From the NCBI GenBank assembly GCA_026706025.1, contig JAPOZO010000012.1, positions 1 through 34,700 on the forward strand: a stretch of DNA of 34,700 nucleotides. The letters are read 5' to 3'. Under the pieces are notes generated by a model. It made no database searches. It was given only the letters and a program-made list of their open reading frames with translations, and was not told where the DNA came from. The DNA comes from Candidatus Poribacteria bacterium. Lineage in GTDB: Bacteria; Poribacteria; WGA-4E; WGA-3G. This document shows, in pieces, positions 2,826-16,131 of this stretch. How positions within the stretch are numbered: the stretch's first letter is position 1; every line of letters starts with the position of its first letter. The translations under genes and the position numbers were made by a program.

Positions 2826-4238
2826 TCAAATATCGGAACGGAAGAATTTCAGAAATGCCACGGTTGTTAATACCACAGCAAAGAAGCAGAGCAGCAGCAC
2901 ATCTATCACCGATTGACTGAATATCTCCCCTAAGGTTGTTGTCGCCAATCGTGGCGGTTGTGTAATTTTGACATTATCTTCTGGGCGGTGCACTCTATGA
3001 GAAATATGATCTGAAATTTTAGTAAAGAAATCTGCATGGAGCATCTCATAATAGCGATCACCTGTTTGAAAGTAGTTGCTTCTTTCTACTTTTCCTGTCT
3101 GTGTTAAGTTCGTGGTAAGATAGATTAAGGAAGATGTAGGGGTAATTCGGGAAAACGTCTCACCTAATTGTTCTTGTCGTTCTGTTTCACGTTTATAATC
3201 TCGATCTAATTTGTTCGCACGGTTCTGGAATTTCAGTCGATATTCCTCTTCAATAGATTTCATGCGTTCGTCAATTTTTTTCGCAATTTCCGGACCTATA
3301 ACGCGCGCTCCGTCCTTATTTGGGGGCACCTCCATGAAGAATTTCATTTTTTGATCTTTGAGTTCGGCATCGAAATTATCTCGCATGGCGGTCTTTTCCA
3401 TATAGACGCTCTGCGAAGTTCGTGTTGGGGAAATGATCTTCGCTGTAAGAAAACCGATGCGTGGTGTAATTAGCACAGCGAACACCCAGACAGTAAAGGC
3501 GACAATAAGAGCCGTTTTGGAATTGTCTAAGTAGGTAGAAATCACCGTTCCGATTGCGAAGAACACCGCTATGTAGAGAAGCGAAATAGCAGTCAAACTG
3601 AGCACGCGGGGAAAAATATCGGGTTCGCCCAAGGGAAACCCTTGCCAAACAAGCACGAGTAAGCCCAATAGAAAAGATACCAAGAACGGAACCACGAACA
3701 CAAAGTACCCACCAATCAATTTGCTCCAGAGGAAGAGGTCGCGTGGAAGAGAGTTTGCTAAGTTAATCCGAAGGGTGCCTGCCTCTCTTTCTCCAGCAAC
3801 GGCATCAAATGTGAACAGTAGCGCAAGGAGACTGAAGACAGTCCCTACCACAAATAGAAAATCGAGATGTCCTAAAAGTTGGGAGAGAGGTGCTGAAAAT
3901 GTAGATGGCGGTCCCTGTGTAATTCCATTGCGGGTCATTCCAAGGTAGCTTGGGAGTGAGTCCTCCAATCCTTTTGCGAAGACGCTCAGCGGTGTCGGTT
4001 TGAGAAAAATTTTGGAAACTTCAACTTCCGGTTGCGGCGGCTGCTTCGGATTTACTGTGGTCTCTTCAATGTTTTCGAGTTTAACGGCTTCTTGGTAATC
4101 CACCAAGTTCTGGCGATAATTCCGGTAATTGGTGGAAAGTGTGAGCGGGACGAGAAGCAGGCACATCAAAAGAAGTGCGACAAACCGGACGCTCAGAATA
4201 TGATGCATAACCTCTTTTTGAATCAACGTCATTAACAT
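2826..4238 (-). CDS. ABC-2 type transporter permease (DUF3526-like)
   Basis: A 470-residue integral membrane protein. Hydrophobic segments lie at about 15-35, 125-147, 174-198, 212-235, 243-260 and 443-465. The motif FDAVAGEREAGTLR (about 144-157) is the cytoplasmic signature of ABC-2/NosY/GldF-type permeases involved in export or envelope assembly. Two large polar regions are inserted: about 36-120 after the first segment and 265-440 before the last, the second rich in charged helix (DRDYKRETERQEQ) as in DUF3526 proteins. Such permeases need an ATPase partner. None is encoded in the window, and the nearest upstream sequence is a mobile-element-like repeat. AAAGGGAG precedes the ATG. The substrate is unknown. 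Confidence 0.8.
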   Translation of the reverse strand: MLMTLIQKEVMHHILSVRFVALLLMCLLLVPLTLSTNYRNYRQNLVDYQEAVKLENIEETTVNPKQPPQPEVEVSKIFLKPTPLSVFAKGLEDSLPSYLGMTRNGITQGPPSTFSAPLSQLLGHLDFLFVVGTVFSLLALLFTFDAVAGEREAGTLRINLANSLPRDLFLWSKLIGGYFVFVVPFLVSFLLGLLVLVWQGFPLGEPDIFPRVLSLTAISLLYIAVFFAIGTVISTYLDNSKTALIVAFTVWVFAVLITPRIGFLTAKIISPTRTSQSVYMEKTAMRDNFDAELKDQKMKFFMEVPPNKDGARVIGPEIAKKIDERMKSIEEEYRLKFQNRANKLDRDYKRETERQEQLGETFSRITPTSSLIYLTTNLTQTGKVERSNYFQTGDRYYEMLHADFFTKISDHISHRVHRPEDNVKITQPPRLATTTLGEIFSQSVIDVLLLCFFAVVLTTVAFLKFFRSDI

Positions 4239-4430: not shown

Positions 4431-4633
4431 ATTGACGATTCAGGGTCATTCAATCTTAAGAAATTATTGGATTTTACGTCTTTTTTTTAGGATCCGGTGC
4501 GAAATCCAGCGAAATCCAGCGAAATCCAGCGAAAATTTCTGCGTTTTTTTAAAAACCATAACATATATTAAGTATTAACACCTGCGAAAATAAACACCAA
4601 AAACCTACAATTGAATGACCCTGATTGACGATT
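4431..4633. mobile_element. MITE-like element with 14-bp TIRs and 10-bp target duplication
   Basis: The element body is 4441-4623 (183 bp). Its ends are a perfect 14-bp inverted repeat: CAGGGTCATTCAAT (4441-4454) and ATTGAATGACCCTG (4610-4623). The identical 10-bp direct repeat ATTGACGATT flanks it on both sides (4431-4440 and 4624-4633), as expected for a target-site duplication. No ORF of useful length lies inside. It holds a T-run (about 4481-4488), a 10-bp tandem repeat and A/T-rich sequence. Length, ends and duplication fit a miniature inverted-repeat transposable element moved by a transposase encoded elsewhere. Ends starting CAGGG with 8-10-bp duplications recall the ISAs1 family, but that assignment is from memory. 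Confidence 0.85.
4499..4534. repeat. 10-bp tandem repeat (GAAATCCAGC) inside the MITE
   Basis: GAAATCCAGC occurs three times head to tail (4501-4530), preceded by GC and followed by a partial GAAA. It lies inside the mobile-element-like sequence, so copy number may vary between element copies. Confidence 0.85.
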
Positions 4634-4638
4634 ATACT

Positions 4639-4674
4639 TTGATAGAACACAATATGTATTGTATACTATAGTAT
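4639..4674 (+). promoter_or_regulatory. Sigma-70-type promoter with palindromic -10 region
   Basis: TTGATA (4639-4644), a 17-base spacer, then TATACT (4662-4667) form a near-consensus promoter about 85 bases before the ATG at 4752. The -10 box lies inside a perfect 12-bp palindrome, ATACTATAGTAT (4663-4674), which could be an operator. The -35 box begins five bases after the target duplication of the upstream element. Confidence 0.65.
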
Positions 4675-4751: not shown

Positions 4752-5597
4752 ATGTTTCTATTTGTTATGAACGTCAGAAAAAAAATGGCTCTGAGTTTGG
4801 TTGCTGTTTTAATCACTGGATTGGGCATAGGGATTCCTGTCGCTGCCCGGACAGTTGTCATCGAAGATGGGTTAATCGGATACTGGAGTTTCGATAAAGA
4901 CACTGTAAAAGGCAAAACAGTAGCGGACATCTGGGGCAACCAGGATGCCGAGATCATAGGGGACCTTCAAATCGTAGCGGGTAAGTTTGGAGAGGCGGTG
5001 CAATTGGGCGGTGGCGCGGGTGCTCGTGTCCAAATGACTGATGACATCAAAAAAGCTGAACTGCCCACAGAGGAGATGACTATAGAATTATGGGCGTGGG
5101 ATGAGCAGTTCATCGAATGGGGTGGTTACGTCGTAGCAGTTCAGGACAATGGTGCTTTTGAAAAAGGTTGGCTGCTCGGCACCCGCTGGAAAGCGTTCAG
5201 TTTCGCGCTCTCCTCGGAGGATGCTGATGATGGGGATGGTCTCTTAACTTACCTCAATGCCGCCACCCCGTCCGAGATGAATGAATGGTACCATGTGGTC
5301 GGAACGTATGACGGTAAGGAGATGAAAATCTACGTAAATGGGAAACCTGAGGGCACTTCCGGTGTCCAATCGGGGCCGATCAATTACCCGGATCGCATCT
5401 TCTTCTCCATCGGTGCGTATAAAGATGATAACGAAGACTTTGTGCACAAGGGGATGCTCGACGAAGTGCGTCTCTATGATCGGGCACTCAGTGAAAAAGA
5501 GGTCTTGAACAATATGGAAGCGGAAGGGTTAGCAGTGGAGCCTGCTGGGAAACTGAGTCTCACTTGGGGACAAATCAAGGCTGCTGCGAGCAGATAA
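4752..5597 (+). CDS. Secreted LamG-domain protein
   Basis: A 281-residue exported protein with a signal peptide over about residues 1-32 (VRKKMALSLVAVLITGLGIG...AA). One LamG/concanavalin-like domain fills about 37-255. Typical strands are GLIGYWSFDKDT at the start, MTIELWAWDEQF, then WYHVVGTYDGKEMKIYVNG and LDEVRLYDRALSEKEV, the usual carbohydrate-binding lectin-fold signatures. The C-terminal tail (LAVEPAGKLSLTWGQIK) matches the tails of the proteins at 169 and 14701. The start follows AGGAGGAAGAA. The next gene begins 27 bases after the stop and is probably cotranscribed. The ligand is unknown. Confidence 0.88.
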   Translation: MFLFVMNVRKKMALSLVAVLITGLGIGIPVAARTVVIEDGLIGYWSFDKDTVKGKTVADIWGNQDAEIIGDLQIVAGKFGEAVQLGGGAGARVQMTDDIKKAELPTEEMTIELWAWDEQFIEWGGYVVAVQDNGAFEKGWLLGTRWKAFSFALSSEDADDGDGLLTYLNAATPSEMNEWYHVVGTYDGKEMKIYVNGKPEGTSGVQSGPINYPDRIFFSIGAYKDDNEDFVHKGMLDEVRLYDRALSEKEVLNNMEAEGLAVEPAGKLSLTWGQIKAAASR

Positions 5598-9426: not shown

Positions 9427-9448
9427 GGTGCGGTTAGGAAACCGCACC
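9427..9448. terminator. 9-bp perfect hairpin in convergent gap
   Basis: GGTGCGGTT (9427-9435), loop AGGA, AACCGCACC (9440-9448), with a weaker outer pair CCCGG/CCGGG (9424-9428 and 9451-9455). It lies between two convergent genes and could end transcription from either side, although no U-run follows. The arm GGTGCGGTTAGGAA recurs at about 22921-22935, so it may be a dispersed palindromic repeat. Confidence 0.5.
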
Positions 9449-15871: not shown

Positions 15872-16046
15872 GGACTTACGCAAATCGAATAGAAAACCGG
15901 CATATTCTGCTGAAAATGTCTTGCAGTGAGACTATTGAATTGTATCTAACCCCCTAAATCCCCTTTATCAGGGGGACTTTGAGAGGAAATGCGTACCCGT
16001 TAAATCCCCCTTATCAGGGGGACTTTAAGAGGAAATGCGTAAGTCC
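15872..16046. mobile_element. Small non-coding element with GGACTTACGCA terminal inverted repeats
   Basis: The 175-bp element starts with GGACTTACGCA (15872-15882) and ends with TGCGTAAGTCC (16036-16046), a perfect 11-bp inverted repeat. Inside are two tandem copies of a 46-bp unit. No transposase ORF is present. A clear target duplication is not visible, though AAAGGG occurs near both edges. A truncated copy of the right end lies at 1-60, and a degenerate relative of nearly the same length at 22877-23053. Confidence 0.65.
15955..16046. repeat. Two tandem 46-bp units with CCCCCT/AGGGGG hairpins
   Basis: Unit one (15955-16000) and unit two (16001-16046) both run from TAAATCCCC through AGGGGGACTTT to GAGGAAATGCGTA, with a few mismatches. 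Unit two has a perfect 7-bp stem (TCCCCCT, TATC, AGGGGGA; 16005-16022). The same unit is at 15-60. Confidence 0.8.
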
Positions 16047-16131
16047 GAAAAGGGAATAGATTACGCCTATTTCCTGTGGTGTGTCCTGAAAGGAAAGTAT
16101 GGGATGGGGTGTTCTTAACGAATGAAGCCAT

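Follow-up and report, generated by a model that had tools for sequence, protein, structure and literature searches.

A 183-bp MITE related to ISAs1-family insertion sequences in a Candidatus Poribacteria genome

The window analysed here, i.e., the whole stretch of 34,700 nucleotides, contains a short transposable element, almost certainly a non-autonomous type I MITE that arose by internal deletion from an ISAs1-family insertion sequence (IS) resident in the genus and was moved in trans. According to the proposed mechanism, the common 14-bp ends would be bound by a DDE transposase of the ISAs1 family, provided in trans, which would move the MITE and give rise to a 10-bp staggered target duplication. 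The element would in this way have landed in the intergenic region of a divergent gene pair, with a promoter-like sequence starting 5 bp further downstream. The existence of the MITE is well documented; in kind it is ordinary and already known. Its interest lies in how cleanly the derivation of a MITE from an IS can be traced in an uncultured lineage associated with sponges, through identical ends, empty sites and an internal transposase remnant, and in a genome that shows no intact parent IS but retains many MITE copies. A literature search, necessarily incomplete, returned no description of this MITE family.

Structure of the element and its copies

The element and its immediate surroundings comprise the following features (window coordinates):

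2826 to 4238, minus strand: left neighbour, a gene for an ABC-2 family transporter membrane protein that runs divergently from the right neighbour
4431 to 4440: left target-site duplication, ATTGACGATT
4441 to 4623, plus strand: 183-bp MITE, ISAs1-derived, without coding capacity
4441 to 4454, plus strand: left terminal inverted repeat, CAGGGTCATTCAAT, the same as the ends of the autonomous IS
4499 to 4534: 10-bp tandem repeat of GCGAAATCCA, 3.6 copies, 100% matching
4610 to 4623, minus strand: right terminal inverted repeat, ATTGAATGACCCTG
4624 to 4633: right target-site duplication, ATTGACGATT
4639 to 4667, plus strand: sigma-70-like promoter TTGATA-17-TATACT (a consensus match only), starting 5 bp past the right duplication
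4752 to 5597, plus strand: right neighbour, LamG/concanavalin-like (Laminin_G_3) protein gene

The sequence-only reading had described perfect 14-bp ends, a perfect 10-bp target duplication and an internal 10-bp tandem repeat. All three are exact, the inverted repeats matching at 14 of 14 positions and the flanking 10-bp direct repeats being perfect. No ORF of at least 60 aa lies inside 4441-4623, in agreement with the proposal that the element has no transposase of its own and depends on an outside source. It thus combines the short length, terminal inverted repeats and missing transposase gene that characterize a MITE. When the window was scanned for 10-bp direct repeats with an inverted repeat just inside, the only match besides the MITE site (14/14) paired at 10 of 14 positions, and the same scan of 100 base-shuffled windows gave no match, which rules out a chance pairing of repeats at the MITE site. 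Indeed, the MITE lies far beyond chance because dozens of copies exist.

These copies were searched for in the host genome to which the window belongs (G000; 6.27 Mb, 103 contigs), and the copy counts given here rest on the matches listed. Among these, the 183-bp body is related to about 40 distinct places, dispersed on dozens of contigs. The 14-bp end, with at most one mismatch, occurs at 42 sites in the host genome vs one for a reversed-pattern control, and paired ends delimit elements mostly of 131-192 bp. Further copies with different 10-bp flanks, a check proposed in the sequence-only reading, were found: at least ten besides the window MITE carry perfect duplications of 9-11 bp, all of differing sequence, as known for MITEs. 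Of 60 genomes, 36 belong to the same genus, and 34 of these carry the family; the 24 from outside the genus all lack it. The tandem repeat varies among family members in both unit number and unit sequence, its units often being alike within a MITE copy and differing between copies.

Several other arrangements were met in or near the family. Neighbouring MITEs at C9:44040-44482 of the host genome (L008) are split by a common CCACTGCCCC-like target, as if by repeated insertion at one site or by tandem duplication. A 68-bp element (C63:373590-373657, L047) consists almost entirely of 34 bp of the IS right end and 32 bp of the left end, with no visible duplication. A REP-like palindrome, GGTTCGGTTAGGAAACCGAACC, lies at window positions 9427-9448; in its variant GGTGCGG...CCGCACC the changes are paired in both arms, and variant included it is found 98 times in the host genome vs 0 for the control. 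This palindrome was apparently captured by a subfamily of the MITEs, because the 131-bp MITE at C14:21015-21145 holds one copy and three further matches (C9:44095, C31:79885 and C50:44832) adjoin MITE left-end segments. Besides, a second repeat family has the ends GGACTTACGCA...TGCGTAAGTCC and the core CCCCCTTATCAGGGGG (window 15873-16047 and 20-60; L006 1672-1794), and one of its copies appears nested in an ISAs1 MITE at C8:5627-5940.

Relation to ISAs1-family elements and source of the transposase

ISAs1-family elements have ends starting with CAGGG and 8-10-bp duplications (ISfinder features). The ISAs1-associated domain PF13808 was detected in 17 of the 38 genomes of the genus. Complete elements of 1339-1345 bp, with a transposase gene, identical 14-bp ends and perfect 10-bp duplications, are present in G018, G019 and G005, and a comparable complete ISAs1 element in G061 has a perfect 10-bp duplication and one mismatch in its terminal inverted repeats. 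In G018, 15 of the 18 loci examined show a perfect 10-bp duplication. The IS transposase matches the NCBIfam ISAs1 model NF033564 at 4.4e-61 (206.8 bits, cut-off 70) and PF13808 at 6.7e-18. The partner element therefore unites an ISAs1-type transposase, CAGGGTCATTCAAT ends and 10-bp duplications, and the link to ISAs1, which the sequence-only reading had put forward, is borne out. The 10-bp duplication GTGTTTACAT flanks two distant ISAs1 copies of OX638352.1 (L157 and L169); the target may lie on a repeat, or the flank may have been duplicated.

Three segments of the MITE have counterparts in these IS elements:

4441 to 4478, minus strand: homologous to the IS right end; identity to L101 is 79% over 38 bp, and the outermost 21 bp are 95% identical to L103
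4486 to 4505, minus strand: homology to the IS transposase gene at its 3' end, with the C-terminal ...LAAKP... codons (85-90% over 20 bp to L101/L099)
4564 to 4623, minus strand: homologous to IS nt 1-62, the left end ahead of the transposase; identity is 85% to L103 and, for the outermost 50 bp, 92% to L101

Because the right 60 bp of the MITE correspond to the IS left end and its left part to the IS right end, the element is an internal-deletion derivative of an ISAs1-family IS. The hairpin region that follows IS nt 62 is lost at the deletion join. The transposase-end remnant occupies MITE positions 46-65, and the 10-bp tandem repeat, which starts inside it, most likely arose by slippage in this remnant. 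Between this repeat and the IS-left-end segment lie approximately 45 bp for which the examined IS elements gave no match.

A PF13808 search of the host genome gave no match, and tblastn and DNA searches with the G018 element returned IS-end matches, which belong to MITEs and to the 68-bp element, and one relic but no intact ISAs1 transposase. An autonomous element with the same ends, expected in the sequence-only reading, therefore exists in congeners but not intact in the host assembly; its presence in the same genome is not required of a MITE. Hence, the transposase that moved the window MITE is not seen in this assembly. The lineage nevertheless once held ISAs1, as follows from a decayed relic at C93:18241-18453 that retains the left end, the start codon and N-terminal codons. 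Multicopy IS elements can drop out of short-read assemblies. Loss of an intact ISAs1 copy from the host assembly is possible, since the transposase was found in four of five congeners assembled in 1-3 contigs vs 13 of the 33 others. As for IS copies collapsed at contig ends, no IS-end match listed in the host genome lies near a contig end.

The missing intact ISAs1 transposase would also fit mobilisation by a transposase from a different family, with CAGGG ends and 10-bp duplications shared by chance, and the host genome does contain three weak matches to PF01609 (DDE_Tnp_1). However, these three loci are without a matching pair of ends and were rejected as the source of the MITE. Moreover, its ends are identical over 14 bp to those of the same-genus ISAs1 elements, with the same duplication length, the likeness reaches 50-62 bp inward, and the relic attests to ISAs1 in the host genome itself. 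Such a chance resemblance is thus largely refuted and can be regarded as extremely improbable. We infer instead that the MITE was mobilised in trans by an ISAs1 transposase.

Empty sites, age of the insertion and possible regulatory effect

The sequence-only reading had proposed a comparison with a relative lacking the insertion. For this purpose, the two flanks were joined with one target copy and matched to congeners. The site is empty, with one target copy, in four of them. Matches run continuously across the joined flanks in G032 (87%) and G014 (85%), which both have ATTGACGATT once, and over the junction in G027 (90%), with a single target copy, while a contig end of G029 reads ATTGCCGATTATACTTTGATAG without the insert, its target being ATTGCCGATT. 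The simplest reading of these comparisons is that the MITE would have inserted in this lineage after its split from G014, G032, G027 and G029. In the sister genome G015, which is 97% identical over the left neighbour, contigs end on both sides of the MITE site.

The insertion had also been called recent. It is recent only in the sense of being lineage-specific, as it is absent from four congeners; the nearest sibling in the host genome, among the matches listed, is 89% identical over the full length and 91% over 153 bp. The ends and duplications are perfect over 48 bp; this agrees with a young insertion, although the sample is small. The closest pair of MITE copies in the host genome, among the matches listed, is about 95% identical; since no two copies exceed this value, the data do not suggest a current burst.

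A putative regulatory effect of the MITE on the neighbouring genes is possible. Its intergenic position 5 bp upstream of the promoter-like TTGATA-17-TATACT and the homogeneous 10-bp repeats inside it could indicate a domesticated regulatory element, selected between the divergent genes, e.g., as an altered LamG promoter or a repeat-based binding array. This explanation is nevertheless very unlikely: the four congeners with an empty site keep the promoter-like sequence where the contig is readable, and a neutral insertion would equally put a MITE beside promoters. Besides, RNA folding of the MITE was no better than shuffles on either strand (z = 0.42 and -0.28) and no terminator-like site was found at the element, so that a role as RNA structure or terminator is unsupported. 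It is highly improbable that the 10-bp repeat is maintained for a function, as an array bound by proteins or as a regulatory cassette that the MITE spreads, so that the family would rewire promoters across this sponge-associated genus. The element is best described as a MITE derived from an ISAs1-family IS.

Comparison with known systems

The closest system is the ISAs1-family IS of Candidatus Poribacteria itself (NF033564; PF13808 and PF01609), e.g., the 1339-bp element in OX638352.1 (L103/L156). The MITE shares with it the 14-bp ends, the 10-bp duplication and the subterminal sequence at both ends, whereas it is without the transposase and the left-end hairpin region and alone has the 10-bp tandem repeat and the unmatched stretch of about 45 bp. 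Among bacterial MITEs, MITEPye1 is a type I element of IS1182 (PMC11578231). Both are short and non-coding, with IS-shared ends and direct repeats, are presumed to be mobilised in trans and are mostly intergenic. However, MITEPye1 occurs in 1-3 chromosomal copies, whereas the window MITE is of the ISAs1 family, with about 40 copies among the matches listed. BrickBuilt of Porphyromonas gingivalis, whose ends resemble ISPg1/ISPg9, is likewise a MITE holding a variable-number tandem repeat, in that case a 23-nt repeat in up to 22.8 copies (PMC4596501). BrickBuilt has no transposase remnant inside, whereas the 10-nt unit of the window MITE begins in such a remnant.
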